NCBI RefSeq assembly: GCF_002797895.1
Contig: NZ_PGES01000001.1
Coordinates: 5,084,001-5,148,000 of the forward strand
DNA length: 64,000 bases
DNA from: Janthinobacterium sp. 67
Lineage (GTDB): Bacteria; Pseudomonadota; Gammaproteobacteria; Burkholderiales; Burkholderiaceae_D
Direction of reading: 5' to 3'
Under the pieces are notes generated by a model, which was not told the origin of the DNA, ran no database searches, and was given only the letters and a program-made list of their open reading frames with translations. Below, in pieces: positions 45,770 through 64,000 of the stretch. The position numbers were made by a program, and so were the translations under genes. The first letter of the stretch is position 1; the number at the start of each line of letters is the position of its first letter.

Positions 45770-47303
<1,534 letters not shown>

Positions 47304-47333
47304 GAGTTTGCACGAATCATGTAAATGATTCAC

Positions 47334-47361
47334 GCATCAAATGTTCACACTTATCGGCTGT
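47334..47361 (+). other. 16S processing stalk, 3' side
   Basis: Complementary to 45581-45607, placed 34 bases after the 16S 3' end. Confidence 0.65.
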
Positions 47362-47400
47362 TAGTCAAAGAAGAAACAGTAGTCGTAGTAGTTCCGCGTT

Positions 47401-47477
47401 GGGGCTGTAGCTCAGCTGGTTAGAGCACCGTGTTGATAACGCGGGGGTCGTTGGTTCGAGTCCAACCAGCCCTACCA
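47401..47477 (+). tRNA. tRNA-Ile (GAT)
   Basis: Seventy-seven bases including encoded CCA. The acceptor GGGGCTG pairs with CAGCCCT (one G-U), the anticodon loop TTGATAA carries GAT, and the T arm is GGTTCGAGTCC. It is a standard spacer tRNA of the rRNA operon. Confidence 0.97.
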
Positions 47478-47488
47478 GTCATTACCCA

Positions 47489-47564
47489 GGGGGATTAGCT
47501 CAGCTGGGAGAGCACCTGCTTTGCAAGCAGGGGGTCGTCGGTTCGATCCCGTCATCCTCCACCA
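47489..47564 (+). tRNA. tRNA-Ala (TGC)
   Basis: Seventy-six bases including encoded CCA. The acceptor GGGGGAT pairs with ATCCTCC, the anticodon loop TTTGCAA carries TGC, and the T loop is GTTCGATCC. It lies 11 bases after tRNA-Ile. Confidence 0.97.
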
Positions 47565-47810
47565 AAGTTTTACTCGAAAGTGCAAACGTAAGCCGGTCAG
47601 TGACTCAGGTTTAGGTTTGATCTTTTAGCGATCAAAGCTGTTTCGTTCTTTAACAATCTGGAAGAAGTAAAGATTATTTATTGATCGGTTTGCCGTAAAA
47701 AGCGAATCGATGGGTAATGATTGTATGTATCAACAAACAAGCAACAACGTTGTACTTTCTTATCCCTGTAGCGCTCTTTTCGTTTGAAAGAATGAAGAGG
47801 CTAACGTTAT
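47565..47810 (+). other. 16S-23S spacer between tRNA-Ala and 23S
   Basis: It holds a second boxA-like GTTCTTTAACA (47645-47655) and the 5' side of the 23S processing stalk (about 47725-47770). That side pairs with about 50702-50747 (ACAACGTTGTAC opposite GTACAACGTTG; TTATCCCTGTA opposite TACAGAGGATAA). Confidence 0.6.
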
Positions 47811-50690
<2,880 letters not shown>

Positions 50691-50824
50691 AACCTTAGCA
50701 GGTACAGAGGATAAGACGGTACAACGTTGCGTGTGTGTTGATACTACCAGTCATTACCCCGATCTTTGCTTCTTCCAGATTCAGGCTTTGTCGCTCCATC
50801 GAGGACAAATGCCGGTACAAGTTA

Positions 50825-50940
50825 TGCCTGATGACCATAGCAAGTTGGTCCCACCCCTTCCCATCCCGAACAGGACCGTGAAACAACTTTGCGCCGATGA
50901 TAGTGCTGCAACCAGTGTGAAAGTAGGTTATCGTTAGGCT
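50825..50940 (+). rRNA. rrf: 5S ribosomal RNA
   Basis: About 116 bases. GCCT at 50826 pairs with AGGC at 50936-50939. The internal GTCCCACCCCTTCCCATCCC, CGAACAGGACCGTGAAACAA and GCGCCGATGATAGTG match 5S. It is the last gene of the operon. Confidence 0.93.
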
Positions 50941-50949
50941 TGTTATTCT

Positions 50950-50988
50950 AAAAAACCCCTTCCGGTGATCCGGTTGGGGTTTTTTTTC
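50950..50988 (+). terminator. rRNA operon terminator
   Basis: AAAAAACCCCTTCCGG, loop TGAT, CCGGTTGGGGTTTTTT: a long hairpin with a 2x2 internal mismatch and a T run, 10 bases after 5S. Confidence 0.9.
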
Positions 50989-51016
50989 GTCTGCTGGTTT
51001 TGTCAGGCGCCGCGAG

Positions 51017-51053
51017 TGGTGTCGGCTTACGCGCGTTGCGCTAAGCCGACCTA
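51017..51053. repeat. REP-like palindromic repeat, copy D
   Basis: GTGTCGGCTTACGCGC, then GCGCTAAGCCGACCTAC, the same family as copies A-C, between the rRNA terminator and the quinoprotein locus. The rest of 50990-51210 shows no gene. Confidence 0.8.
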
Positions 51054-51210
51054 CGGTCAGCCCTCCTCGTCCGTTGGCAATGACCTTTGCGTGAGCGGCA
51101 TGGAGGGTCTGTCCCCGGTCGTTCAGGTGTTGGGTTTTATCGACTCACGTCTTCCCTGTTCATGCCTGCCGCTGCCTGATGCGCGCGGTGACACAACTGG
51201 GTGTTGCAGC

Positions 51211-51227
51211 TGTTCCAAATTGATACA
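51211..51227 (+). promoter_or_regulatory. Candidate activator-binding dyad upstream of the cytochrome gene
   Basis: TGTTCCA-AAT-TGATACA matches, in layout, the dyad at 56024-56040 (TGTTCCA-GTC-TGGTACA). It lies about 30 bases upstream of the sigma-54 -24 element, closer than usual for an enhancer site. Confidence 0.45.
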
Positions 51228-51256
51228 TGGGTGGCCGGATGCGGGGCAAATACGCA

Positions 51257-51272
51257 TGGCATGGCATTTGCT
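51257..51272 (+). promoter_or_regulatory. Sigma-54 promoter of the cytochrome gene
   Basis: TGGCATGGCATTTGCT has GG at 51258-51259 and GC at 51270-51271 with exactly 10 bases between, near the RpoN consensus. It lies 37 bases before the ATG. Confidence 0.85.
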
Positions 51273-51309
51273 CTTCTTGGGTATTGACTAAAAAACCAAG
51301 GAGACCAGC

Positions 51310-51795
51310 ATGACCTATTCCATTCGTACCCTGCTCGGCGTGGCGGCCGCCGGCGCCGTCGCCCTCACTTCCCTGCTGACCTTGCCGCATGCCTATGCGC
51401 ATGGCAACGTCACGCCGCAAGGCGTCGACACCACAGGCTTGCCCAAGGTGGGCGACAAGTGGCTCGAGCAAAACCCGTATCGGGGCAACAAGCTGGCTCT
51501 GACGGTCGGCACCTCGGCCTACAACCAGAATTGCGCCCGCTGCCACGGCATCGAAGCCATCTCGGGCGGCATCGCGCCGGACTTGCGCCAGCTGGACCGC
51601 GATTGCTTCGGTATCAAGAATGAGACAAAGAAACAGGCTTGCTACAAGGAGACGGACAATTACTACCTGACCACCATCCGTCACGGTAAAGTGCGCAATG
51701 GCGCCGTGTACATGCCGCCGTTCGAAGGCGTGTTCAACCAGGAAGCCATGTGGGCCATCAAGACCTATCTGGAAACGCGCCGCGAATCCAACTAA
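51310..51795 (+). CDS. pedF: PedF-like cytochrome c of quinoprotein alcohol oxidation
   Basis: This 161-residue periplasmic c-type cytochrome has a signal peptide (cleavage near 30, HAYA), haem motif CARCH (C75, C78, H79) and probable axial Met in YMPPFEG (M135). C99 and C111 may form a disulfide. It would take electrons from the PQQ alcohol dehydrogenase at 58 kb. It begins after AAGGAG and a sigma-54 promoter, and is followed by the binding-protein gene in the same unit. Confidence 0.88.
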   Translation: MTYSIRTLLGVAAAGAVALTSLLTLPHAYAHGNVTPQGVDTTGLPKVGDKWLEQNPYRGNKLALTVGTSAYNQNCARCHGIEAISGGIAPDLRQLDRDCFGIKNETKKQACYKETDNYYLTTIRHGKVRNGAVYMPPFEGVFNQEAMWAIKTYLETRRESN

Positions 51796-51820
51796 GCCAC
51801 ACTGATCACGAAGGAGTCCC

Positions 51821-52654
51821 ATGCGTTCATTTCAACTCCGGGGCGTGCGCGCGATGATCTCGCTCGCTTGCCTGGCGCTGTGCGCAGCCGCGCCGGCGCA
51901 TGCCGACTGGCAGAAGGTGCAGCAGTCGGGCAGCCTGAAAGTGGCTGTGTACAACGAATTCGCGCCGTTTTCCGACAAGGGAGTCGGCATCGATATCGAC
52001 ATCGCCGAAGCGCTGGCGAAAAAGCTGGGGCTGAAACTGAGCTTGCTGCCATTTCCCGCCGGTGAAAACCTCAACGATGACTTGCGCAATATGGTGTGGA
52101 AGGGGCATTACCTCGGTTATGGTCCCGCGGACGTGATGCTGCATGTGCCAGTCGACAAGCAGTTGATGGCCGATAACGACAAGGTCGAGATCTTCGCGCC
52201 GTATTACGTGGAAACCGTGCGCCTGGCGCGCAGCGCGCAAGCCGTGCCGCAATTCGACGGCGTCGCCTCGCTGGCAGGCAAGCGTATCGGCGTGGAAAAG
52301 GTGTCGATCGCGGCCATGCTGATGCTGGGCGAAGACAATGGCAAGTACCGCGACGACGTGCGCATCTTCGACACGGCGGCCGAAGCCTTGCAGCAATTGC
52401 AGGCGGGGCAGCTTGACGCCGTGCTGGCCAACCGTTCGGAAATCGAGTCCGTGCTGAAAAGCGATCCTGCTTTCCCCATGAGCGAAGTGGCGTTCGCCCG
52501 CTTGCCCCGTGCCGGCTGGGCCGTGGGCCTGGCCGTCAGCCGCCAGCAGCTCGACGTGGCAAAATTGCTGCAGGCAGCCATGAACGAGATGGCGGCCAGC
52601 GGCGAATTGAAAACCATTTTTGAGAAATATGGCGTGAAGGCAGCTCGGCCCTAA
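51821..52654 (+). CDS. Quinoprotein-associated periplasmic substrate-binding-like protein
   Basis: The 277-residue family-3 solute-binding protein has a signal peptide (cleavage near AHA, about 29). AAGGAG precedes ATG 51821. SLKVAVYNEFAPFSDKG and GVGIDIDIAEALAKKLG are typical of proteins found next to PQQ dehydrogenases, such as MoxJ/XoxJ. No ABC permease is nearby. It may help maturation or electron transfer of the dehydrogenase and not transport. It lies 25 bases after the cytochrome gene. Confidence 0.8.
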   Translation: MRSFQLRGVRAMISLACLALCAAAPAHADWQKVQQSGSLKVAVYNEFAPFSDKGVGIDIDIAEALAKKLGLKLSLLPFPAGENLNDDLRNMVWKGHYLGYGPADVMLHVPVDKQLMADNDKVEIFAPYYVETVRLARSAQAVPQFDGVASLAGKRIGVEKVSIAAMLMLGEDNGKYRDDVRIFDTAAEALQQLQAGQLDAVLANRSEIESVLKSDPAFPMSEVAFARLPRAGWAVGLAVSRQQLDVAKLLQAAMNEMAASGELKTIFEKYGVKAARP

Positions 52655-52673
52655 CTAGCCATGCTGGATAGCG

Positions 52674-52704
52674 AAGCCCGCGTATCGGAAGATACGCGGG
52701 CTTT
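52674..52704. terminator. Bidirectional terminator between binding protein and TonB receptor
   Basis: AGCCCGCGTATC (52675-52686), loop GGAA, GATACGCGGGCT (52691-52702), with A/T tails; it serves convergent genes. Confidence 0.85.
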
Positions 52705-52708
52705 GTTA

Positions 52709-54847
52709 TTAGAACGAGTATTGCGCGCTGACACCCAGCAGCCAGTTACGTCCCGGCGCCGCTTCATAGTAGCGCTTGTTGCTGTCGCCGACGATGACGG
52801 AACCCACGTAGGTTTTGTCGAAAAGATTGTTCAGGCGGGCAAATTCCTTGAAGCGCCAGTTCCCCACGTTTTGCTTGGCGTTGAAGCGCGCATTGAACAC
52901 CGTATAGCCGGGCGCCGGCTTTTCGCTGTTGCTGTCTTCCGCGTAGACCTGCTTGCTGGCCACGCTTTCCAGCGCCGCGCCAAAGCGGTCGAGCGTGTCT
53001 TTCCAGGCCAGTTCCGCGAACAGGTTGGCGCTAGGCACGCCCGGCAAACGGCTGCCTTCGCGCACGGCGCCGAACGCCTGGTCATACACGGCGTGCAGGC
53101 TGGTCAGCGCCACTTTTGTCGTGAAACCATATGGCAGGCTGGATTCGAGCGACACTTCCATACCCTGGCGCAAGGTCTTACCCGCATTGCGGTAGCTGGT
53201 ACGCCCGCCGCTGGAACTGTCGACCACCAGCTCGTCGTTGGTCTTGATCTGGAACACGGCCGCATTGACGTGCGTGTTGTGGTTGATCCTCGCCTTGATG
53301 CCCGCTTCCAGGTTGGTGCTGGTGGCCGGTTTCAGCTGGTAATTGAAGCCGCCGCCCGTGCCCGAGTAAAACAGTTCATTCAGGGTGGGCGCTTCGAAAC
53401 CGCGGGCGGCGCTGGCGTACACATTGACGTCCGGCGTCAGTTTGTACAGCAAGCCCAGCACCGGTGTCGTGTGGCTGAACTCCAGGCTGCCGCTGTCGTT
53501 CCCATTGCCGAGATAGCGGTCGTTGACCAACACTTTCATCTTGCTGTAGCGCACACCTGCGCTGAGCAGCCACGCTCCGCTTTGCCATTCCGTCTGGATA
53601 TACGGATCGAGGCTGGAGACGACATCCTGCTCGTCGCGGCGCAGCTTGCCTTTCACGCCAAAGGTATTGCCGATGTAATTTTCATAGCCGGTGCGGTCAT
53701 CGCTGGAGCGGCCGTAATCGATGCCGATGGTGGTGCTCAGCTTGCCGCCGGCCAGCTGGTTCACGTGCAGCCAGTTGGTGTCGATGCCGTAGAACTCGCG
53801 CTGGAAGTCGACCACGCCGCCCGAATGGCTGGCCGGCGCCTGGAAACCCTTGGTAAATGCCTGGTATTGGATCACGTCGCGGTTGCCGCCGTAGGCCGTC
53901 ACGTGCAGGCGGTCGTCGCCGAACGACTGTTCATAGGTGGCGCCGATTTGCTGGTGGTCGATGCTCTTGCGGGTGTTGTAGCGCTCGGCCAGGGTGCGCT
54001 TCGGGTTTTGCGTATCCGTCGTGTCGATTTCTCCCGCGCGCGGATCGCGGGCAAACGTGGCCCAGGAGGCGCCCAGCGGATCTTGCGTATTGCCCTGGTG
54101 CAGGCTGTTGGCGACGATGGTCAGCTTGCTGTCATTCGTCGGCTTGACGGTGATCTTGCCGAACGCCTGTTCGCGCGCGGCGGCGCTGTGGTCGCGGAAA
54201 CCGTCGGTGCGGAAGCGCGAGCCGTCGAGCACGTAGCCGATACCGCCTGCCTGGCCTTGGGCCGAGAGGTCGACCTTGCTGGTGCCGAAGCTGCCGCCCG
54301 TCACGTTCAGCTCGACGGATGGGGGATTTTGCCCATCCTTGGAAAACAGCTGGATCACGCCGCCCGAGTGGTTGCCATAGATGGCGGAGAACGGTCCGCG
54401 CAGCACTTCGATGCGCTCGGCCGTATCGAGGTTGAAGGTGGCGGCCTGGCCCTGGCCATCCGGCATGCTGGCGGGAATGCCGTCGCTGATCAGCTTGACG
54501 CCGCGCACGCCAAAGGCCGAGCGGGCGCCGAAGCCGCGCGACGAGATTTGCAAGTCTTGCGCGTAGTTCTGGCGGTTTTGCACCACCAGACCCGGCACGG
54601 CGGCCAGCGCTTCCGACGCGTTCACGCGGATCTGGCCATCCTGGATGCGGGCGCTGTCAACGACGTCGATCGAGGCCGGCACTTCCTGGCTGGGATGGGC
54701 AATGCGGCTGCCGCTGACGACCACCGTATCCATCAGTTGCCCGTTGGCCGGGGCAGCTGCCTCGGCGGCAAAGACGTGGGGGGCGAGGGTAGCGCTGCCG
54801 GCGACAAACAAGCTGGCGATGGTGTTCAGGCGGAAACGGTGCTGCAT
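52709..54847 (-). CDS. TonB-dependent receptor, PqqU/YncD-like (probable PQQ receptor)
   Basis: ATG 54847 with GGAG upstream gives 712 residues and a signal peptide (cleavage near HVFAAEA). Plug and barrel domains contain long stretches I recognise from E. coli YncD: GLVVQNRQNYAQDLQ, DGIPASMPDGQGQ, LRGPFSAIYGNHSGG, VVDSSSGGRTSYRNAGKT and DKTYVGSVIV. YncD was identified as the PQQ receptor PqqU. The position beside a PQQ enzyme supports that role. It could instead carry a metal chelate. It is on the opposite strand to its neighbours. Confidence 0.82.
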   Translation of the reverse strand: MQHRFRLNTIASLFVAGSATLAPHVFAAEAAAPANGQLMDTVVVSGSRIAHPSQEVPASIDVVDSARIQDGQIRVNASEALAAVPGLVVQNRQNYAQDLQISSRGFGARSAFGVRGVKLISDGIPASMPDGQGQAATFNLDTAERIEVLRGPFSAIYGNHSGGVIQLFSKDGQNPPSVELNVTGGSFGTSKVDLSAQGQAGGIGYVLDGSRFRTDGFRDHSAAAREQAFGKITVKPTNDSKLTIVANSLHQGNTQDPLGASWATFARDPRAGEIDTTDTQNPKRTLAERYNTRKSIDHQQIGATYEQSFGDDRLHVTAYGGNRDVIQYQAFTKGFQAPASHSGGVVDFQREFYGIDTNWLHVNQLAGGKLSTTIGIDYGRSSDDRTGYENYIGNTFGVKGKLRRDEQDVVSSLDPYIQTEWQSGAWLLSAGVRYSKMKVLVNDRYLGNGNDSGSLEFSHTTPVLGLLYKLTPDVNVYASAARGFEAPTLNELFYSGTGGGFNYQLKPATSTNLEAGIKARINHNTHVNAAVFQIKTNDELVVDSSSGGRTSYRNAGKTLRQGMEVSLESSLPYGFTTKVALTSLHAVYDQAFGAVREGSRLPGVPSANLFAELAWKDTLDRFGAALESVASKQVYAEDSNSEKPAPGYTVFNARFNAKQNVGNWRFKEFARLNNLFDKTYVGSVIVGDSNKRYYEAAPGRNWLLGVSAQYSF

Positions 54848-54954
54848 GCGGATTCTCCAATGTGAATAAAAGCCTGCTTTGGTCGCGTGCGCGGCGCAGG
54901 TCTGCATCGTTGTATCAAGCAATATGCCTGCCATGTCTCCATTGGTGGGCTGAA

Positions 54955-54960
54955 ATTATA
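54955..54960 (-). promoter_or_regulatory. Candidate -10 element of the TonB receptor gene
   Basis: TATAAT on the minus strand, about 108 bases before the receptor ATG. Its -35 would overlap the sigma-54 promoter at 54971-54986 and is not a good match. Confidence 0.35.
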
Positions 54961-54970
54961 CGCGTGTCAG

Positions 54971-54986
54971 TGGCACGGCGTTTGCA
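54971..54986 (+). promoter_or_regulatory. Sigma-54 promoter of the beta-propeller gene
   Basis: TGGCACGGCGTTTGCA has GG at 54972-54973 and GC at 54984-54985, spacer 10, an essentially consensus RpoN site. It lies 66 bases before the ATG. Confidence 0.88.
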
Positions 54987-55051
54987 TACAGCAATGTTCA
55001 GATGCGCCGATGCCGCGCGCTTTTCCTGTGTTTTGCCATCGAAAGGTGATT

Positions 55052-56008
55052 ATGCCCAACTTCTTCTCGCGCTTGCGCCAGGTGTGCTGGCTGCTGCCTG
55101 CGCTCGCCAGCAGCGCCCTCCAGGCTGCTCCATTTGCCTATGTTCCCAATGAAAAATCGGGCACCTTGAGCGTGATCGACACGGCGACCGACCAGGTCGT
55201 GCGCCAGATTGCAGCCGGCAAGCGTCCGCGCGGCATCGCCGCCGACCCCACCGGGCGGCAATTGTTTGTCACGGACGCCGCCAGCAGCGCCTTGCTGCTG
55301 ATCGATAACGCTGGCGGCACGCCCCTGCGCAGGGTGGCGCTGGGCAAGTCGCCCGAAGGCGTCAGCGCCTCGCAAGATGGTAGTCACGTGGCCGTGGCCG
55401 TCGAGGAAAACAATAGCGTGGCCTTGCTCGATGGCCAGACGGGCAGCTTGCTCGCCGATATCAAGGTACAGGGACGCAACCCGGAACATGCCGTCTTCAG
55501 CCCCGATGGGCGCTGGCTGCTGGTCAGCGCGGAAGAGGCCGAACAAGTCGATGTCATCGACGTGGCGCAGCGCCGCCAGGTGGCGTCCGTCGCCGTTGGG
55601 CTGCGTCCGCGCGGCATCGGCTTCAGTCCGGACTCGGGCCGCGCCTACGTGGCGTGCGAACTGGTCAATGCCGTCTACGTGATCGACATGGCCGCGCGCA
55701 AGGCGATTGCCACCATTCCCGCTGGAAAAAATGCCAATGGCATCGTGGTCCATCCCGGCGGCAAGCAAGTGTATGTCTCGAATGGCACGGACGGCACGGT
55801 AATGGTGATCGATACGGCCAGCAACAAGGTGACGGCCACCATTCCCGTCGGAAAGCGCCCGTGGAATATGGCCATCACGCCAGACGGCGCCAAGCTGTAC
55901 GTGGCCAATGGCCGCTCGAACAGCGTGTCCGTCATCAACACGGCCAGCGCGCGCAAGGTAGCCGATATTGCAGTGGGTGAGTTGCCATGGGGCGTGGTGA
56001 TTCGCTAG
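55052..56008 (+). CDS. PQQ-catabolism-associated YVTN beta-propeller protein
   Basis: ATG 55052 with AAAGGTG upstream gives 318 residues: a signal peptide (ending LQAAPF near 26), then about seven repeats of YV-type blades (VIDTATDQVV, VIDMAARKAI, VIDTASNKVT, VINTASARKV). The family is found with PQQ-dependent alcohol oxidation clusters. Its biochemical role is not known; binding or maturation of the dehydrogenase is possible. A longer frame from 54887 would run through the promoter and is rejected. Confidence 0.82.
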   Translation: MPNFFSRLRQVCWLLPALASSALQAAPFAYVPNEKSGTLSVIDTATDQVVRQIAAGKRPRGIAADPTGRQLFVTDAASSALLLIDNAGGTPLRRVALGKSPEGVSASQDGSHVAVAVEENNSVALLDGQTGSLLADIKVQGRNPEHAVFSPDGRWLLVSAEEAEQVDVIDVAQRRQVASVAVGLRPRGIGFSPDSGRAYVACELVNAVYVIDMAARKAIATIPAGKNANGIVVHPGGKQVYVSNGTDGTVMVIDTASNKVTATIPVGKRPWNMAITPDGAKLYVANGRSNSVSVINTASARKVADIAVGELPWGVVIR

Positions 56009-56023
56009 TGGCACAGGACCAGG

Positions 56024-56049
56024 TGTTCCAGTCTGGTACACCTGTTCCA
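56024..56049 (+). promoter_or_regulatory. Candidate enhancer-binding site upstream of aldehyde dehydrogenase
   Basis: TGTTCCA-GTC-TGGTACA (56024-56040) is a near-perfect dyad, followed by a further TGTTCCA half-site (56043-56049). It lies about 118 bases before the -24 element, a normal distance for a sigma-54 activator. Confidence 0.6.
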
Positions 56050-56156
56050 TTGTGCAGCGGCTCAAGCCCGGACATGCGCTGAAAAGCACACCGGTATTGA
56101 CGCCACGCCCTTGTAACAAGGGGAAAAGCGGCTAAGTTTGTAGTGGGATGGCGAGC

Positions 56157-56172
56157 TGGCACGGCATTTGCG
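56157..56172 (+). promoter_or_regulatory. Sigma-54 promoter of the aldehyde dehydrogenase gene
   Basis: TGGCACGGCATTTGCG has GG at 56158-56159 and GC at 56170-56171 with spacer 10. It lies 88 bases before the ATG and probably drives the aldehyde dehydrogenase, DUF779 and PQQ dehydrogenase genes. Confidence 0.87.
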
Positions 56173-56260
56173 GAAGACTCCGTGTACTCACCCCATCTGT
56201 ACCAGGACGTTTGATTTTAATTACAGTAATTCCATTCTAATTAACCCGATAGAGGACGAC

Positions 56261-57781
56261 ATGAATCTCGCAGACATCAGCAAACTGGGCGTAGCCAATC
56301 CTTTCAAACAACGCTATGACAATTACATTGGCGGCAAATTCGTTGCCCCAGTAAAAGGTGAATACTTTCCTAACATCACGCCGATCACGGGCTTGCCGTT
56401 TTGCGAAATCGCCCGCTCCACGGTGGAAGACGTCGAGCTGGCCTTGGACGCCGCCCATGCCGCCAAGGATGCCTGGGGCAAGACTTCGCCTGCCGAGCGC
56501 GCCAATATCCTGAACCGCATTGCCGACCGCATCGAACAGAACCTGAGCCTGATCGCCACGGCGGAAACCATCGACAACGGCAAGCCCATCCGCGAAACGA
56601 TGAATGCCGACATTCCGCTGGCTATCGACCATTTCCGTTACTTCGCCGGCTGCATCCGCGCGCAGGAAGGTTCCGTCGCGCAAATCGACGCGGAAACCTA
56701 TGCCTACCACTACCATGAGCCGCTCGGTGTCGTGGGCCAGATCATTCCGTGGAACTTCCCGATTCTGATGGCCGTGTGGAAACTGGCGCCAGCCTTGGCC
56801 GCCGGCAATTGCGTCGTCCTGAAACCGGCCGAGCAGACACCGGCTTCCATCATGGTGTTGATCGAGCTGATCGGCGACTTGCTGCCGCCGGGCGTGCTGA
56901 ACATCATCAACGGTTTCGGCCTGGAAGCGGGCAAGCCGCTGGCCTCGAGCAAGCGCATCGCCAAGATCGCCTTCACGGGCGAAACGGGCACGGGCCGTCT
57001 GATCATGGGTTATGCCGCGCAAAACCTGATTCCCGTCACCCTGGAGCTGGGCGGCAAGTCGCCGAACATCTTCTTTGAAGATGTGATGGATGCGGATGAC
57101 GAGTATTTCGACAAGTGCCTGGAAGGTTTTGCCATGTTTGCGCTGAATCAGGGCGAAGTGTGCACCTGCCCATCGCGCGTGCTGATCCAGGAATCGATCT
57201 ACGAGAAATTCATCGAACGTGCGCTGAAGCGCGTGGCTGCCATCAAGCAGGGCAACCCGCTCGACTCGTCCACCATGATCGGTGCGCAGGCATCGCAGGA
57301 GCAGCTGGAGAAAATCCTGTCCTACCTCGACATCGGCCGCCAGGAAGGCGCCGAAGTGCTGGCCGGCGGCGAGCGCAACACGCAGGCGGGTGACCTGGAA
57401 GGCGGCTACTACGTGCGTCCGACCGTGTTCAAGGGCAACAACAAGATGCGCATCTTCCAGGAAGAGATTTTCGGGCCCGTCGTGTCCGTGACCACTTTCA
57501 AGGATGAGGCCGACGCGCTGGCGATTGCCAACGATACCTTGTACGGCCTGGGTGCCGGCTTGTGGACGCGCGACGGCTCGCGCGCCTTCCGCATGGGACG
57601 CGCCATCCAGGCGGGCCGCGTGTGGACCAATTGCTACCACCTGTATCCGGCCCACGCCGCGTTCGGCGGCTATAAGCAATCGGGTATCGGCCGCGAAAAC
57701 CACAAGATGATGCTCGACCATTACCAGCAAACGAAGAACTTGCTGGTGAGCTATAGCCCGAAAGCGCTGGGCTTCTTCTAA
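56261..57781 (+). CDS. exaC: NAD-dependent aldehyde dehydrogenase (ExaC/AldB type)
   Basis: The enzyme oxidises acetaldehyde or similar aldehydes made by the alcohol dehydrogenase. ATG 56261 (AGAGGA upstream) gives 506 residues. Catalytic Cys is C301 ([11 protein letters not shown]), general base E262 (LELGGKSPN), and PWNFP and TGETGTGR bind NAD. The downstream DUF779 gene commonly partners this aldehyde dehydrogenase subtype. A frame from 56168 would begin inside the promoter region and is not used. Confidence 0.93.
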
Positions 57782-57835
57782 ACCGGTACACGCGCCGCGC
57801 CTGTTGTCCGGGCGCGGCGCACAGAAAGGGATGCC

Positions 57836-58225
57836 ATGAGTGCAGCAATTGCCCGGGTGGTCGCCACCGATGCGGCGCTGGAATTGATGGACAAGTTGCG
57901 CCAGCGTCATGGTCCGCTGATGTTTTTCCAGTCGGGCGGTTGCTGTGACGGCAGTACGCCCATGTGTTATGCGCTGGGCGAGTTCGATGTCAGCGACACC
58001 GACATCTATCTCGGCAATTTGAATGGCACACCGTTCTACATGGGACTCGAGCAATTCGAGTACTGGGAGCATACCCAGTTGATTATCGATGTGGTCGATG
58101 GCAATGGCGGCATGTTTTCACTCGACAACGGCACGGGCAAGCGCTTCTTGACGCGCTCGCGCCTGTTCACCGATGAAGAGTGCGCCTTGCTGCATGCCCA
58201 GCCGCATGAGCACCGCAAGACTTGA
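57836..58225 (+). CDS. DUF779 protein associated with aldehyde dehydrogenase
   Basis: The 129-residue protein has a conserved Cys cluster (GGCCDGSTPMC, about 35-45) and no signal peptide. DUF779 genes sit beside acetaldehyde dehydrogenases of this type in many bacteria. Function is not settled; metal or redox sensing is possible from the cysteines. It lies 54 bases after exaC. Confidence 0.85.
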   Translation: MSAAIARVVATDAALELMDKLRQRHGPLMFFQSGGCCDGSTPMCYALGEFDVSDTDIYLGNLNGTPFYMGLEQFEYWEHTQLIIDVVDGNGGMFSLDNGTGKRFLTRSRLFTDEECALLHAQPHEHRKT

Positions 58226-58261
58226 TACACACACATACTAATAAAACAGAGGGAGATGATT

Positions 58262-60013
58262 GTGCAGAAAAAAATCATGGGGATACTCGTCGGTTTGGGT
58301 TTGGCATCGCTGGCCCAGGCGGCCGATGTGGGCAATGTCACCACCGCCATGCTCGACAGCACGGCAAAGAATCCGTCCAGCGTCCTGTCGTTCGGCATGG
58401 GCACGCAGGGCCAGCGTTATTCGCCGCTGACGCAGATCAATGACAAGACCGTGGCCAAGCTAGTGCCGGCCTGGTCGTTCTCGTTCGGTGGTGAAAAACA
58501 GCGGGGCCAGGAATCGCAGCCGCTGATTCACAACGGCAAGATGTTCGTCACGGCATCGTATTCGCGCATCTTCGCCGTCGACTTGAAAACGGGCGCCAAG
58601 CTGTGGAAATATGAGCATCGCTTGCCAGACGGCATCATGCCCTGCTGCGACGTCGTCAACCGTGGTGCGGCCCTGTACGGCAACCTGGTGATCTTCGGCA
58701 CGCTCGACGCCTACCTGGTGGCGCTGGACCAGAATACGGGCAAGATCGTCTGGAAGGAAAAAGTCGACGACTATGCGGCTGGCTACTCGATGACGGCCGC
58801 ACCGCTGATCGCCGAAGGCTTGCTGCTGACGGGCGTGTCGGGCGGTGAATTCGGCATCGTCGGTCGGGTCGAAGCGCGCAACCCGATGACGGGCGACCTC
58901 GTGTGGAGCCGTCCGACGGTAGAGGGTCACATGGGCCACCGCTACGACAAGGATGGCAAGGCCATCGACAACGGCATTTCGGGAACGGTAAACAAGACTT
59001 GGCCGGGCGACCTGTGGAAAACGGGCGGCGCCTCGACGTGGATGGGCGGCACCTACGATCCGCAAACCAAGCTCGCGTATTTTGGCACGGGCAACCCGGC
59101 GCCGTGGAACAGCCATTTGCGTCCCGGCGACAATCTGTACTCGTCGTCCACCGTGGCGCTGGACGTGAAAACGGGGCAAATCAAGTGGGCGTATCAAAAC
59201 ACGCCGAACGATGCCTGGGATTTCGACGGCGCCAACGAATTCGTCACCTTCGACATGGATGGCAAGCGCTACGGCGGCAAGGCCGACCGCAACGGTTTCT
59301 TTTATGTGATCGACGCCAACACGGGCAAGCTGCAGAACGCCTTTCCATTTGTGAAGAAAATCACCTGGGCCAGCAGCATCGACCTGAAGACGGGCCGGCC
59401 GAACTACATCGCTGCCGGCCGCCCTGGCGATCCGACCAAGGGCGAGGAGGGCAAGAAGGGGAGTACCGTGTTTGCCGCGCCCGCTTTCCTCGGCGCCAAA
59501 AACCAGATGCCGATGGCGTACTCGCCGCAAACCAAGCTGTTCTATGTGCCGGCGAACGAATGGGGCATGGATATCTGGAACGAGCCGATCAGCTACAAGA
59601 AGGGCGGTGCGTTCCTCGGCGCAGGTTTCACCATCAAGCCCTTGTTTGACGACTACATCGGCGCCATGCGCGCCGTCGATCCGAAGACGGGCAAGATCGT
59701 GTGGGAAATCAAGAACAACGCGCCGCTGTGGGGTGGCGTGATGAGTACGGCCGGCAATCTGGTGTTCTACGGCACGCCGGAAGGTTTCCTGAAAGCCGTC
59801 GACGCGAAGACGGGCAAGGAGCTGTGGAAATTCCAGACGGGCTCCGGCGTCGTGGCGCCGCCCGTCACCTGGCAGGATGGCGATACGCAATATGTGGCCG
59901 TCGTATCCGGCTGGGGTGGCGCGGTGCCGCTGTGGGGCGGCGAAGTGGCGAAGAAGGTCAACTTCCTGGAACAGGGCGGTTCCGTGTGGGTCTTCAAGCT
60001 GGCATCGAAGTAA
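58262..60013 (+). CDS. PQQ-dependent alcohol dehydrogenase with lanthanide-type active site (PedH-like)
   Basis: This periplasmic quinoprotein oxidises ethanol or related alcohols and passes electrons to cytochrome c. GTG 58262 is preferred because GGGAGA lies at a good distance; ATG 58256 sits too close to it. The product is 583 residues with signal peptide ending AQAA. An eight-bladed propeller has the vicinal Cys pair (MPCCD, C128-C129), GGEFG with Glu196, N278 and the catalytic segment [13 protein letters not shown] with D320 and D322. Asp at the second position, in place of the Ser/Ala of calcium enzymes, is the lanthanide signature. C-terminal [13 protein letters not shown] is typical. 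Confidence 0.93.
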
Positions 60014-60076
60014 CGGGGTGAAGCGCCCGGGCCACACGGATGGGTGTCTCCCTGTCCGCCGGGTGCTTTCTTTTTG

Positions 60077-60102
60077 CTGACGGCCCAGGCCGTCAGTTTT
60101 TT
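60077..60102 (+). terminator. Terminator after the PQQ dehydrogenase
   Basis: CTGACGGCC (60077-60085), CA, GGCCGTCAG (60088-60096), then T6. Confidence 0.9.
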
Positions 60103-60221
60103 GTTTACCTCGATGGCCGATACGCATACTTGCGGTCAAAAAATGAACACTATCAGTGGCGATTGATCCGCCGCTGCACACGTTGAATATGCTTTTTTCC
60201 TTTCTCCCTCTGAGGCTTGCT

Positions 60222-60237
60222 GGGCACGCTTATTGCC
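60222..60237 (+). promoter_or_regulatory. Sigma-54 promoter of the porin gene
   Basis: GGGCACGCTTATTGCC has GG at 60223-60224 and GC at 60235-60236 with spacer 10. The first base differs from consensus. It lies 64 bases before the porin ATG. Confidence 0.78.
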
Positions 60238-60300
60238 AAAGCTTGAGGTACATCAATCACTGGTGTGCACACTAAAAACAGAGAAGAAAGAGGAGAAGAA

Positions 60301-61461
60301 ATGAACACATGGATCAAGCTGGGGAGCCTCGGTGTCATGACTATCGCAGCGGTGGGACAGGCGCAAGCCGTCGATATCAAGGCTGGCGACTGGACCGTGT
60401 CGGTGGGCGGCATCGTCAACGCCTACTACACGCAGGTGTCGTGTTCGGGCGATGCGGTGGGCGGGCTGGCGCTGGGCGGCCAGGCGCTCGGCTGCGGCGG
60501 AGAGAAGGACCGCACCACCATCGGCAATGGCTTGTTGCCCAACGGCTTGATCACCTCGGCAAGCTCGCGCCTGGGCGAGTACGACGTGAAAGCCTTGATC
60601 GGCATCTACAACTCGACGGCCACGGACAGCGCCATCAGCCAGAACAGCGTCGTCGACGTGCGCCAGGCTTTCTTTACGTTTGGCAATGAGAACATGGGCA
60701 CCTTCAAGCTGGGGCGCGACTACGGCATCTTCGGCGCGAATGCGATCCTGTCCGACATGACCTTGCTGGGCTCGGGCGCGCCCGTGCAGGCCACGCAGCG
60801 GGGACGGGTGACCCTGGGCCATATCGGTGCCGGCTATACCTATCTGGGCAACTATGGACAGATCATGTACACCTCGCCAAAGTCGGGCGGCGTTGGCGTC
60901 GACGTGGCACTGGTCAGCCCCGTCTCCGATACGCCTATCGTGGCAGGCTCGACCTATTCTTCGAAGTCGAGTCCGCAAGTGCAGGCGCAGCTCACGTATG
61001 CGCAGGAAGGCTTGAAGGCGTGGCTGGGCGTGAAGTCGCAAAAATTCACGTCGAAGACGCCAGGTGTCGATGACCTGACCATGCGCGGCGTGGAAGTGGG
61101 CGGTTCGTACCAGATGGGTTCGGCTGGCGTGCTGGTCAACTTCCAGGGCGGCAAGGGCCTGGGCATCTTGTCCGATGCGGACCAGGGCGATACCAAGTCG
61201 AAAAACTGGCTGCTGCAAGGCACGTATAAAACGACGGACAAGCTGAAGCTGGGCTTGTCCTACGGCATCAGCAAGAACGACGACAACACGGCCGGCACGG
61301 GCGGCTTGAAGTCGAACGCCAACCTGACCCTGGGCGCGTATTACTCGCTCAACAGCGCGATCACCCTGGTAGGCGAGCTGGGCCAGACGCGCTCGAAAGG
61401 CTTTGCCGGCGGCGAGGCGAAGATGAATGGCGTGTCCCTGGGCGGCATTATTTTCTTCTAA
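60301..61461 (+). CDS. Gram-negative porin
   Basis: ATG 60301 follows GAGGAG and gives 386 residues with a signal peptide (ending AQAVD, about 23). The beta-barrel alternates Gly-rich strands and ends in Phe (GGIIFF). The Gram-negative porin pattern includes FFTFGNENMGTFKLGRDYG. It would let alcohol substrates or PQQ/metal chelates cross the outer membrane. It probably shares a transcript with the downstream NosR-like gene (48 bases away). Confidence 0.86.
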   Translation: MNTWIKLGSLGVMTIAAVGQAQAVDIKAGDWTVSVGGIVNAYYTQVSCSGDAVGGLALGGQALGCGGEKDRTTIGNGLLPNGLITSASSRLGEYDVKALIGIYNSTATDSAISQNSVVDVRQAFFTFGNENMGTFKLGRDYGIFGANAILSDMTLLGSGAPVQATQRGRVTLGHIGAGYTYLGNYGQIMYTSPKSGGVGVDVALVSPVSDTPIVAGSTYSSKSSPQVQAQLTYAQEGLKAWLGVKSQKFTSKTPGVDDLTMRGVEVGGSYQMGSAGVLVNFQGGKGLGILSDADQGDTKSKNWLLQGTYKTTDKLKLGLSYGISKNDDNTAGTGGLKSNANLTLGAYYSLNSAITLVGELGQTRSKGFAGGEAKMNGVSLGGIIFF

Positions 61462-61509
61462 CTCAACAACGCGGCGCCTTGGAACAGGGCGCCGCACGGA
61501 GCACCATGC

Positions 61510-63621
61510 ATGCGGATAATGCGCTTGTTCATAGCCTGCTGGCTATTCCTGTTTATCCTGGGACAGGCTTGGGCCGGTGTGCTGACCAAGGCCGAGCTGA
61601 CACGGCGCTTTCCCGCGCCCATCGTCGTGGGCGACAAGGAGGCCGACTTGCCCGTCTGGCCTCTGTTCCGCCAGAACGCCACGGCGACCGAACTGGTCGG
61701 CTACGTGTTTGAATCGGTGGACTTGGCGCCCATACCCGGCTTTTCCGGCGTGCCCGTCAATCTGCTGATCGCCATCGATCCGAAAGGCAGTTTTCTCGAC
61801 GTCGCCGTGCTGTCGCAGCACGAGCCCGTGTTTCTCGACGGCTTAGGCGAAGCGCCCCTGTTTCAGTTCGTCAAGCAGTATCAGGGCTTGTCGCTGAAAC
61901 AGAATATCGCCATCGACGCCAGGACGAAACGCGCGCCGGATGCGAGCCACGCCGATATCGATGGCGTATCAAAAGCCACGGCCTCCGTGCGCATCATCAA
62001 CCAGAGCGTGCTGGCCTCGGCCTTGAAAGTGTCGCGCAAAAAACTCGGTTTTGCGCAAGGCCGCGACCCGGACCAGATCGCCCGCATCCGCATGGAGGTA
62101 TTCGAGAAACTCGGCGTGGCGCAGATGCTCGAACAGGGCTTGATCCAGCATGTACGCCTGAGCAACAAGGAGGTGGAAGCCTTGTTTGCGGGCAGTCCCG
62201 GAGCCGGACTCGATGCGGAAGCCACGCGCGACGCGGACGGCGCGTTCATCGACCTGTACCTGGCGTACGTCTCAGTTCCCACGGTGGGGCGCAACCTGTT
62301 GACGGAACGCAGCTGGAATAAATTGCGCAACCGGCTCGACGAGGGCGACCATGCCATCCTCGTCATGTCGCGCGGGCGCTATGGCGTGCTGGGCGACGAT
62401 TTCGTGCGCGGTACCGTGCCGGACCGCTTGTTGCTGAAGCAGGATGGCTTGCCCATCGACATGCGCGACCTGGACCTGGAACTGAGCTTTTCCGATGCGG
62501 GGCCACTGCCGACGGAAAGTGTCGCCGTATTTCGCATTATCAGCCAGGCGGGGCTCGATGCTGCCAGCCCGCTGGCGTTCACGCTGCCCATCACGCGCAG
62601 CAAGGGCATCGTGTATCCGGAACGCATCGTGCGTAACGTGGATTTCAATTACCGCTTGCCGGCCAAGTTCTATACGGCGCAGCAGGGCGACGATGCCGGT
62701 TGGCGCGGCACGTGGAGGGGGCGCAAGGTCGAGTTGCTGCTATTGGTGGCCGGGCTGGCGCTGCTGGCCGGCGCCTTGTTCTGGCAGAAACGCCTGGTGC
62801 GCGATGGTCGCCAATTTGCCTGGCTCCGCCGCCTGTTTCTGATATTTACGATAGGCTTCATCGGCTATTACGCGCAGGGGCAGTTATCGATCGTCAATAT
62901 CACGGGCGTCATCCAGGCGCTGCTGGCGGGGCGCAGCCTGGGCTTTTTCCTGTTTGATCCGATGACGGTGATCCTGTGGGCTTTCGTGGTGCTCAGCTTG
63001 CTGATCTGGGGACGGGGCACGTTTTGCGGCTGGCTGTGTCCGTTCGGCGCCTTGCAGGAATTCACAGGCAAGCTGGGCCAGTGGCTGCGCTTGCCTCAGT
63101 GGAAGATCAAGTCGCGCCTCGACGGGCGCTTGAAATGGATCAAGTATGGCTTGCTGGCGGCCATCCTTGCCAGCAGCATGTTGTCCAGCCAGATCACGGA
63201 CAAGCTGGTCGAGCTGGAACCATTTAAAACGGCCATCACCCTGAACTTTGTGCGGGCCTGGCCGTTTGTTGCATATGCCGTGGGCTTGCTGCTGCTCAGC
63301 AGTGTTTCCTATAAATTCTTTTGCCGCTATCTGTGCCCATTCGGTGCGGCGCTGGCGCTGCTGGGGCGGTTGCGCCTGTTGGACTGGATTCCGCGCCGCA
63401 ATGAATGCGGCACGCCGTGCCAGACTTGCCGCCACCGTTGCGAACATCACGCCATCGCGCCGAGCGGGAAAGTCGATTATGGCGAATGTTTCCAGTGCAT
63501 GGATTGCGTGGTGATTTACGCCAGCGATGAAAAATGCGCGCCCTTGATGCTGGAAATCAAGCGTGCCCGCACCATTCCCATTGTCCGGGCCACGGCAGAG
63601 GAGAGCAGCGATGCAGCGTAG
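61510..63621 (+). CDS. NosR/NirI-like membrane flavoprotein with iron-sulfur clusters
   Basis: The 703-residue protein has a signal peptide and a periplasmic FMN-binding domain with a flavinylation motif DGVSKATAS (T157). Membrane segments follow in the middle, with two CxxxCP motifs (CGWLCPFGAL, CRYLCPFGAA). The C-terminal ferredoxin-like region has two clusters (CGTPCQTCRHRC and CFQCMDC). This layout fits NosR/NirI, which move electrons across the inner membrane for periplasmic redox enzymes. No denitrification genes are present, so its partner is probably the quinoprotein locus. It overlaps the ApbE gene. Confidence 0.88.
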   Translation: MRIMRLFIACWLFLFILGQAWAGVLTKAELTRRFPAPIVVGDKEADLPVWPLFRQNATATELVGYVFESVDLAPIPGFSGVPVNLLIAIDPKGSFLDVAVLSQHEPVFLDGLGEAPLFQFVKQYQGLSLKQNIAIDARTKRAPDASHADIDGVSKATASVRIINQSVLASALKVSRKKLGFAQGRDPDQIARIRMEVFEKLGVAQMLEQGLIQHVRLSNKEVEALFAGSPGAGLDAEATRDADGAFIDLYLAYVSVPTVGRNLLTERSWNKLRNRLDEGDHAILVMSRGRYGVLGDDFVRGTVPDRLLLKQDGLPIDMRDLDLELSFSDAGPLPTESVAVFRIISQAGLDAASPLAFTLPITRSKGIVYPERIVRNVDFNYRLPAKFYTAQQGDDAGWRGTWRGRKVELLLLVAGLALLAGALFWQKRLVRDGRQFAWLRRLFLIFTIGFIGYYAQGQLSIVNITGVIQALLAGRSLGFFLFDPMTVILWAFVVLSLLIWGRGTFCGWLCPFGALQEFTGKLGQWLRLPQWKIKSRLDGRLKWIKYGLLAAILASSMLSSQITDKLVELEPFKTAITLNFVRAWPFVAYAVGLLLLSSVSYKFFCRYLCPFGAALALLGRLRLLDWIPRRNECGTPCQTCRHRCEHHAIAPSGKVDYGECFQCMDCVVIYASDEKCAPLMLEIKRARTIPIVRATAEESSDAA

Positions 63622-64000
63622 AACGTTTATTTCCGCAGCGATAGGCAGCGTGGCCGGCATGGCGGGCTTGTCTTTGCCGGGCAGCATGGCGCGCGGCACG
63701 GCCACGGCCTCCGGCGTGCGCCTTTATCAAGGCGCCGCCCTGGCGTTTGGCACGACGATCGCCGTTACCGTGTTGCACCACGATCAGCGCCAGGCTGAGC
63801 TGGCCATCGAAGATGCCTTGCATGCCGCCAGGAATATCGACCGCCTGATGAGCATTTACAGTCCCGCCAGCCAAGTCTTCCAGCTGAACCGTGACGGCCG
63901 CCTGGCTCGGCCGGACTCCCATCTGCTGGCCGTGCTGGCGCAGGCGCAAGCCTTGTCGCAATGGAGTGATGGGGCGTTCGATATCACTGTGCAACCCCTG
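63611..64000 (+). CDS. apbE: ApbE-like FAD:protein FMN transferase (partial)
   Basis: The start ATG 63611 overlaps the NosR-like stop by 11 bases. The first 130 residues are seen; the gene continues beyond the window. The N-terminus MQRRTFISAAIGSVAG looks like a twin-arginine signal. IDRLMSIYSPASQVFQLN and SDGAFDITVQPL are typical of ApbE. Its role would be to attach FMN to T157 of the upstream protein. Confidence 0.88.
   Translation, partial: MQRRTFISAAIGSVAGMAGLSLPGSMARGTATASGVRLYQGAALAFGTTIAVTVLHHDQRQAELAIEDALHAARNIDRLMSIYSPASQVFQLNRDGRLARPDSHLLAVLAQAQALSQWSDGAFDITVQPL

Follow-up and report, generated by a model that had tools for sequence, protein, structure and literature searches.

The window analyzed here is a 64,000-nucleotide stretch of Janthinobacterium sp. 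67 DNA (GCF_002797895.1, contig NZ_PGES01000001.1, positions 5,084,001–5,148,000 of the forward strand), and the cluster under study occupies its positions 51,211–64,000. All the genes named there by an earlier sequence-only reading were recovered as open reading frames (ORFs) at the positions given (Table 1). The receptor ORF opens at 54934, with an internal Met at 54847 as its likely start, and the exaC ORF opens at 56168, with an ATG at 56258 as its likely start. The family-3 binding protein is possibly a XoxJ/MoxJ-like helper of the PQQ dehydrogenase. The putative porin had no match in Pfam, NCBIfam, or PDB searches, and little was gained from PDB searches with the porin, the binding protein, and the cytochrome.

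Table 1 Genes and sigma-54-type sites of the cluster, in window positions.
Feature	Position	Strand	Evidence
Sigma-54-type −24/−12 site, upstream of pedF, 10/11	51257..51272	+	Site scoring
PedF, cytochrome c550	51310..51795	+	TIGR04494, 199.4 bits (cut-off 122)
Family-3 substrate-binding protein (SBP)	51821..52654	+	PF00497; TIGR03871, 32 bits, under its cut-off
PqqU-type TonB-dependent receptor, predicted PQQ importer	52709..54847	-	PDB 6v81/9c4o matches; F/R/R signature; NF041535, 639 bits (cut-off 1200)
Sigma-54-type site, upstream of PqqU-type receptor	54918..54933	-	Site scoring
Sigma-54-type site, upstream of propeller gene, 11/11	54971..54986	+	Site scoring
YVTN-type beta-propeller, resembling the PQQ-catabolism-associated type	55049..56008	+	TIGR03866, 220 bits, under cut-off 287
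Sigma-54-type site, upstream of exaC	56157..56172	+	Site scoring
ExaC acetaldehyde dehydrogenase	56258..57781	+	NF050026, 948.6 bits (cut-off 900)
DUF779 protein	57836..58225	+	PF05610, 149.6 bits
PedH-like PQQ alcohol dehydrogenase, lanthanide type (D322-x-D324, PCCD)	58256..60013	+	TIGR03075, 753 bits (cut-off 480)
Probable outer-membrane porin	60301..61461	+	Signal-like start by eye; name inferred
NosR/NapH-like membrane flavoprotein	61510..63621	+	PF04205, PF12801; NF046105, 599 bits (cut-off 1000)
ApbE flavin transferase (start)	63611..64000	+	PF02424; end at G000:C1:5148621, outside the window

The sequence-only reading had placed a covalent-flavin NosR-like carrier and its own ApbE within a PQQ locus, and the genes of this pair, whose covalent flavin is predicted, overlap by 11 bases. 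It had also named a denitrification cluster starting just past 64000 as the finding that would overturn it. That stretch instead holds the end of ApbE, the gene for a sigma-54 activator, rRNA genes, and purine genes. Visual inspection of the ORFs in the 19 kb past the window showed no nos or nir gene, and a genome-wide search with the TIGR04244 NosZ model gave no match; within these limits, no nosZ is encoded with the NosR-like gene. Across the genus, 9 of 40 genomes hold a TIGR04244 NosZ over the cut-off.

A flavoprotein clade apart from NosR

The NosR-like protein consists of an FMN-binding domain with Thr157, two CxxxCP motifs, and a C-terminal eight-Cys region, all of which it shares with NosR. 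Thr157 and 12 Cys are invariant in an alignment of the window protein, 80 relatives, and 20 further homologs, and these ligands are likewise common to NosR. We treated a PF12801 protein with an FMN-binding domain clustered with ApbE as a flavinylated NapH-like system, and this is the arrangement found here, ApbE lying downstream within 400 bases in 75 of the 80 loci with a NosR-like gene. The protein is predicted to be flavinylated covalently on Thr157 by the adjacent ApbE. In a tree of ApbE proteins, built to look for a clade dedicated to these carriers, two from NosZ loci and that of locus L226 were placed among the others, on long branches. The FMN domain matches RnfG, which was the sole Foldseek match at E ≤ 0.001 to a structure model of the protein (71.9 pLDDT, pTM 0.50) and covers a small part of it.

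The flavinylation motif, DGVSKAT, departs from the canonical D-x-x-[S/T]-G-A-[S/T], and Lys or Arg replaces the motif Gly in 81 of 81 aligned proteins (the window protein and 80 relatives). According to a review, a Gly-to-Ala change in this motif of a different flavoprotein cut labelling to about 50% (PMC12052999). A protein tree was built from 58 of the 101 proteins, hand-picked (38 from the window protein and its 80 relatives, and all 20 others), and in it NosR with a GAT motif forms a separate clade. By tblastn, the window protein is 31–34% identical to ten GAT-motif family members, and at 598.8 bits it stays under the NF046105 NosR cut-off of 1000. One family genome (G001) holds both kinds, a GAT-motif NosR adjoining NosZ and a separate NosR-like copy adjoining the dehydrogenase. 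Unlike NosR, the window protein has no NosZ and neighbors a PQQ dehydrogenase; by clade, motif, and neighbor, it belongs to a clade apart and is not NosR. Membership of the gene in a nos/nir cluster was ruled out by its neighbors, the absent TIGR04244 NosZ, and its clade in the tree.

A class-wide search matched 54 genomes besides its own, and 20 regions from 19 genomes were viewed in context. Fourteen Gly/Ser-type copies lie beside NosZ, against none of the five Lys-type copies; the motif of one locus (L284) was not captured by the search pattern. Because three Lys-motif copies (L266, L269, and L271) had no PQQ gene found nearby, the Lys motif is weakened as a sign of dehydrogenase partnership. 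Locus L265, with just 0.5 kb upstream on its contig, matched none of the remaining queries.

Association with PedH-like dehydrogenases

The window dehydrogenase had been called lanthanide-type, and the extra Asp is present (W-D322-F-D324), matching 6zcw, which we take to be PedH, where ExaA 1flg has Ser. It scores 831 bits to 6zcw versus 675 bits to ExaA 1flg and would be expected to use a lanthanide.

Co-occurrence was examined in 195 family genomes, with sets and coordinates for this, the subtype, and the receptor-linkage tests transcribed by hand. Any match to the NosR-like protein at E 1e-3 was found in 103 of the 195, and 53, own included, were kept as NosR-like at ~53% identity or above, one of them (G101) on a partial match at a contig edge. 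The dehydrogenase was over the cut-off in 73 genomes, and the 62 at a score of at least 700 bits were used in most tests. A PQQ dehydrogenase (at least 700 bits) occurs in 51 of the 53 NosR-like genomes, own included, and lies within 15 kb of the NosR-like gene in 43 of 53, statistics that ignore kinship but bear out the co-occurrence anticipated from the sequence. Among the 10 unlinked genomes, seven have the dehydrogenase on another contig, two have it at 32.5 and 99.7 kb, and G112 has none over the cut-off; in two of the seven, G101 and G143, the dehydrogenase on another contig is only a XoxF-like one. All that G156 has is a partial dehydrogenase (505 bits).

The association follows subtype. 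When enzymes were sorted by identity to the window enzyme (PedH-like, 74–100%; XoxF-like, 39–43%; two Ser-type, 51–52%), the NosR-like gene lay within 15 kb of 42 of 54 PedH-like enzymes and 0 of 22 XoxF-like ones, linkage counts that again ignore kinship. Compared with PDB entries, one XoxF-like enzyme gave 6dam XoxF as its best match. The Asp is carried by 76 of the 78 dehydrogenases examined in the family, so the lanthanide specificity of the pairing is not separable by this residue within the family; the subtype split does separate. The 80 named loci gave 65 dehydrogenase matches (60 Asp and 5 Ser), two of the Asp-bearing ones being distant paralogs at 32% identity.

The NosR-like gene is absent from 11 of the 62 dehydrogenase genomes, of which five have a PedH-like enzyme, and is therefore not essential to the pathway; for each genome, the family searches for this gene and the receptor scored the five best candidates of a first look, and some absences may be missed matches. 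The cytochrome PedF is often kept alongside the flavoprotein. In 20 of 80 loci it is at most 3 kb away, several ordered pedF-SBP-NosR-like-ApbE. No PedF was seen in 29 of 62 dehydrogenase loci, 20 of which are shorter than the full stretch and 9 of which hold ~22 kb.

PQQ supply

Two features had escaped the sequence-only reading: an apparent inability to make PQQ and a published PqqU signature in the receptor. The pqq genes searched were pqqC, which had no match in the window's genome or in 12 sampled congeners, and pqqE, which was over the cut-off in 5 of 40 Janthinobacterium genomes, own not among them. The genome thus appears unable to make PQQ. A PqqU-type receptor is present in 39 of the 40, two of these at 42% identity.

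Like PqqU/YncD (Munder et al. 2025, PMC12124388), the window receptor has the three signature residues (Y/F/W99, R304, and R365, here F, R, and R, Phe being accepted in place of Tyr99) and a further eight residues named for the binding site, the signature positions being mapped by hand along the alignment with the PDB matches. The F/R/R signature recurs in 42 of 42 examined loci having the receptor. Unlike PqqU/YncD, the window receptor falls under the NCBIfam equivalog cut-off and its gene forms part of a dehydrogenase locus, in a genus where pqqE is absent from most sampled genomes. Among 55 genomes whose enzyme is of the PedH or Ser type (XoxF-like enzymes left out), linkage of receptor and dehydrogenase is seen in 24 of 26 pqqC-minus versus 7 of 29 pqqC-plus genomes, a count that ignores kinship, 13 of the 24 being from a single genus. 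Because pqqC is missing, pqqE is not over its cut-off, and the receptor carries the published signature, the locus probably runs on imported PQQ.

Probable sigma-54-type control

Positions 48000–64000 were searched for sigma-54-like sites scoring at least 10/11, with 40 first-order Markov simulations as background. Four sites were found versus 0.7 expected, upholding the claim of such sites before four transcription units. Among 12 ortholog loci picked by hand, a similar site lies upstream of exaC in 12, the activator in 12, the receptor in 11, and the propeller gene in 11; it lies upstream of pedF in 2 of 12, most of the 12 being without that stretch. A PF00158 activator is encoded past the window (L004:1623-3674), with an 11/11 site upstream of it in the same genome (L004:3801, minus strand). 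The two marks that together we took to indicate a sigma-54 regulon, more sites than expected at random and a sigma-54 activator encoded at the locus, are thus both present, suggesting that the sites are used by sigma-54 and that the module is sigma-54-regulated.

Possible routes of electron flow

The reading that we favor, and consider reasonably probable, is a sigma-54-regulated alcohol-oxidation module on imported PQQ, in which the NosR/NapH-like protein is a second membrane port. It builds directly on gene content and order, co-occurrence, conserved cofactor ligands, the PqqU signature residues, and the pqqC/pqqE result, from which we infer flavinylation, lanthanide use, PQQ import, partner identity, and sigma-54 use. 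PqqU would import PQQ to the periplasm, the PedH-like dehydrogenase with its lanthanide-type site would oxidize the alcohol and ExaC the aldehyde, and PQQH2 electrons would pass to cytochrome c550 (PedF). With its Thr157 flavinylated by ApbE, the NosR/NapH-like protein would give this periplasmic pool of electrons a second port, the likeliest path starting at the dehydrogenase/PedF pair and reaching the quinone pool by way of FMN and the Fe-S clusters. This direction is the weakest step of the explanation, and we propose it tentatively, at a little under even chances; flow in the reverse direction seems rather unlikely. NosR and like relatives are thought to give electrons to a periplasmic enzyme, which counts against flow from the periplasm to the quinone.

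The NosR-like protein might instead be reductive, as is thought for NosR, sending electrons from a quinol or cytoplasmic donor into the periplasm, where they would serve to activate, mature, or protect PedF or the PQQ dehydrogenase. The 12 Cys and the Thr common to NosR speak for this role, but no periplasmic reductase was recognized at the locus among Pfam/NCBIfam profile matches, the partner enzyme is an oxidizing one, and motif and clade are unlike those of NosR, which leaves it doubtful. Less probable still is co-inheritance alone, with the carrier serving another periplasmic partner and traveling through a shared operon and regulator. Six of 61 well-flanked loci lack the dehydrogenase at the threshold used and Lys-motif relatives without nearby PQQ genes exist, but in five of these six loci the neighbors are pedF, SBP, and ApbE, and the linkage survives gene-order reshuffling and follows one dehydrogenase subtype. 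That the protein is a stray or remnant of a denitrification cluster, as its match to the NosR model could suggest, is contradicted by its score under that model's cut-off, by the lack of adjoining nos genes and of a TIGR04244 NosZ in the genome, and by the separate GAT-motif clade with its NosZ-adjoining member in G001, and is very improbable.

Relation to known systems

The joining of such a carrier to PQQ alcohol oxidation had been thought not to be known as described, but it is already in Meheust et al. 2021 (PMC8238504), who reported flavinylated NapH-like proteins clustered with ExaA ethanol oxidase in 172 genomes and proposed the same electron path to the electron transport chain, the flavoprotein taking the role held elsewhere by a cytochrome. 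Like the clusters outlined there, the window locus has an Fe-S membrane protein with an N-terminal FMN domain, ApbE, and an ExaA-family dehydrogenase; unlike them as outlined, it also has PedF and a PqqU-type receptor, its enzyme is PedH-like with a lanthanide-type site, and its motif has Lys/Arg for Gly, in a comparison with the published outline of those clusters. We found no bench test in the literature of a flavoprotein of this kind beside a PQQ dehydrogenase.

Measured against the gene layout of Pseudomonas ped/exa ethanol oxidation, the locus has PedF, a PedH-like enzyme, and ExaC in common with it, but carries a sigma-54/GAF-type activator and the flavoprotein/ApbE pair, not the Pseudomonas regulators. 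New here are the clade and motif split from NosR, the association with PedH-like and not XoxF-like enzymes, and the imported-PQQ reading. In a genus that can be cultured, the locus makes it possible to test the electron route proposed in 2021 from gene neighborhood alone. The PQQ results suggest that many Janthinobacterium may rely on other microbes for PQQ, which would make their alcohol oxidation a trait of the community.

Taken jointly, these observations allow a bolder reading, which we regard as possible but not likely. The Lys/Arg-A-T proteins would be a distinct kind of covalent flavoprotein, in which a fixed positive charge in place of Gly, accepted by the neighboring ApbE, raises the FMN potential for exchange with PQQ enzymes and cytochrome c550, not N2O reductase, and the whole Janthinobacterium branch would depend on its neighbors for PQQ and perhaps lanthanides. 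By the Lys/Arg residue, these carriers can also be told apart from NosR in sequence; in several sources, proteins of this kind are named for NosR/NirI or for nitric oxide reductase regulators.

Locus layout and candidate sigma-54 sites

The window (G000:C1:5084001-5148000 of the strain's own 6.45 Mb genome) carries the quinoprotein module with a divergent PqqU-type receptor gene and with exaC-to-apbE intergenic distances of 54, 30, 287, 48, and -11 bases, in order. One rRNA operon ends at 50939 and another lies beyond the window, so the module is flanked by two. No nos or nir genes were seen around the module or in the stretch past the window; where the sequence-only reading had considered a denitrification cluster just past 64000, the end of apbE, a sigma-54 activator gene, the rRNA operon, and (by eye) purine catabolism genes were found instead. 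The nearest named relatives, also Janthinobacterium, encode NosR-like proteins 90-93% identical to that of the window. Draft contigs of many relatives also end near both module edges, so its position may be conserved among them.

Features of the module and its flanks in order (window positions; L004, stretch past the window end)
Feature	Position	Strand	Remark
rRNA operon	45770-50939		upstream of module
pedF	from 51310		
Family-3 binding protein			
PqqU-type TonB receptor	52709-54847	-	
Propeller			
exaC			
DUF779			
PedH-like lanthanide-type PQQ dehydrogenase	58256-60013	+	
Probable porin			
NosR-like protein	61510-63621	+	predicted membrane flavoprotein
apbE			remainder beyond window
Sigma-54 activator	beyond window		convergent; GAF, AAA, Fis-type domains
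rRNA operon	L004:4215-9429		beyond window

Scanning 48000-64000 against the -24/-12 consensus gave four putative sites with at least 10 of 11 matches (0.7 expected), before pedF, the receptor gene, the propeller gene, and exaC; gene content and scan thus bear out the proposed module with sigma-54-type sites before four units. Among 12 hand-picked ortholog loci, a similar site precedes exaC and the activator gene in 12 each, the receptor and propeller genes in 11 each, and pedF in two, most of the 12 being without that stretch. Such consensus matches are candidate sites and no proof of sigma-54 use.

Partners of the NosR-like protein

The anticipated co-occurrence held: among 195 family genomes, 53 encode the NosR-like protein, 62 a dehydrogenase of at least 700 bits, and 51 the two together; Fisher's test, uncorrected for descent, gives p 2e-33. 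By subtype (78 read), 42/54 PedH-like, 0/22 XoxF-like, and 1/2 Ser-type dehydrogenases lie within 15 kb of the NosR-like gene. In 75 of 80 named loci, ApbE lies no more than 400 bases downstream; of the 61 well-flanked ones, 60 show ApbE and 55 the dehydrogenase. The sequence-only interpretation is partly supported: the NosR-like/PQQ-dehydrogenase pairing, there taken as undescribed, is already in Meheust et al. 2021. The present analysis adds the Lys/Arg motif variant, the PedH-subtype link, the retention of the cytochrome at many of the loci, and a probable dependence on external PQQ.

ApbE was not found in the fetched stretches of five Gallionellaceae/Sideroxydans/Nitrosomonadales-type loci (L041, L042, L043, L045, L048), which retain a K-A-T NosR-like protein followed by DUF779. 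Three Janthinobacterium loci (L056, L061, L063) carry an inverted Ser-type (calcium-type) dehydrogenase, 51-53% identical, and retain receptor, exaC, DUF779, NosR-like protein, and ApbE.

A Lys/Arg motif variant distinct from NosR

The NosR-like protein comprises an FMN-binding domain, two CxxxCP motifs, and a C-terminal region with eight Cys; Thr157 and 12 Cys are invariant across it, 80 relatives, and 20 further homologs. RnfG is a weak match to its FMN domain, both in sequence (E 0.014) and in fold (E 2.5e-4). The flavinylation motif reads D-x-x-[S/T]-G-A-[S/T] in a review (PMC12052999); all 81 aligned sequences (window protein and 80 relatives) have Lys or Arg at position 155. Identity with NosR was rejected: the protein scores under the NosR model cut-off and, unlike NosR of the GAT group, has the Lys/Arg motif and, in a tree from a short search, belongs to a clade of its own (SH-aLRT: Lys/Arg group 97, GAT group 100).

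Twenty loci from a class-wide search were read in context: 14/14 Gly/Ser-motif loci and 0/5 Lys-motif loci adjoin NosZ, and one with an unread motif has NosZ adjacent. Among the Lys-motif loci, L279 has pedF, binding protein, and propeller adjacent; PQQ genes were sought near L266, L269, and L271 (other gammaproteobacteria) and none found; and in L265, whose contig begins 0.5 kb before the NosR-like gene, the other queries were unmatched. By eye, a MauG-like gene lies some kb from the NosR-like gene in L269. The congener G001 has a GAT-motif NosR beside NosZ (L216, G001:C1:1310001-1325000) and, 49 kb away, a second NosR-like gene beside a PQQ dehydrogenase. A more distant NosR-like/ApbE pair (L226:6151-14892; motif HGVQAGT, the usual Asp missing) lies 4-5 kb from another PQQ dehydrogenase, perhaps an independent pairing.

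PQQ supply

PqqC exceeded the cut-off in 47/195 family genomes, and none of the 13 Janthinobacterium genomes in that set of 195 gave a match; PqqE exceeded its cut-off in 5/40 Janthinobacterium genomes, and matches in the own genome were weak (best 52 bits, cut-off 381). Besides the dehydrogenase, that genome has three weaker matches to TIGR03075, the methanol/ethanol-family model; their frames are about 810 residues long and probably encode membrane enzymes of the glucose type.

The receptor's top solved-structure matches are YncD and a PQQ transporter, and it carries F99, R304, and R365 of the published PqqU signature (PMC12124388). It occurs in 39/40 Janthinobacterium genomes, hence in pqqE-bearing ones too, with 42% identity in two of the 39. 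Of the 55 genomes encoding a PedH- or Ser-type enzyme, 24/26 pqqC-minus and 7/29 pqqC-plus ones have the receptor within 16.5 kb of that enzyme (p 3e-7, uncorrected); the 24 comprise 13 Janthinobacterium and 11 across seven genus codes. Anywhere in dehydrogenase genomes, the receptor occurs in 28/29 pqqC-minus and 25/33 pqqC-plus, so linkage differs more than presence. Judged from gene content, the locus likely depends on PQQ supplied from outside.

Proposed electron path

Imported PQQ and metal would charge the PedH-like enzyme, whose electrons would pass to PedF, and the predicted flavoprotein would most likely link the PedF/dehydrogenase pool with quinone. No experiment on this path was found in the literature searched, and we know of none. 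Since NosR itself is thought to carry electrons the opposite way, reverse flow through the NosR-like protein is a plausible, somewhat less probable alternative. The favored path toward quinone is also put forward, from gene neighborhood, in Meheust et al. 2021 (PMC8238504).

PedF lies within 3 kb of the NosR-like gene in 20/80 named loci. It was not seen in 29 of the 62 loci with a dehydrogenase (nine of these 29 span about 22 kb) and is present in the other 33; the flavoprotein is therefore no constant substitute for the cytochrome, though it could replace it in some lineages.
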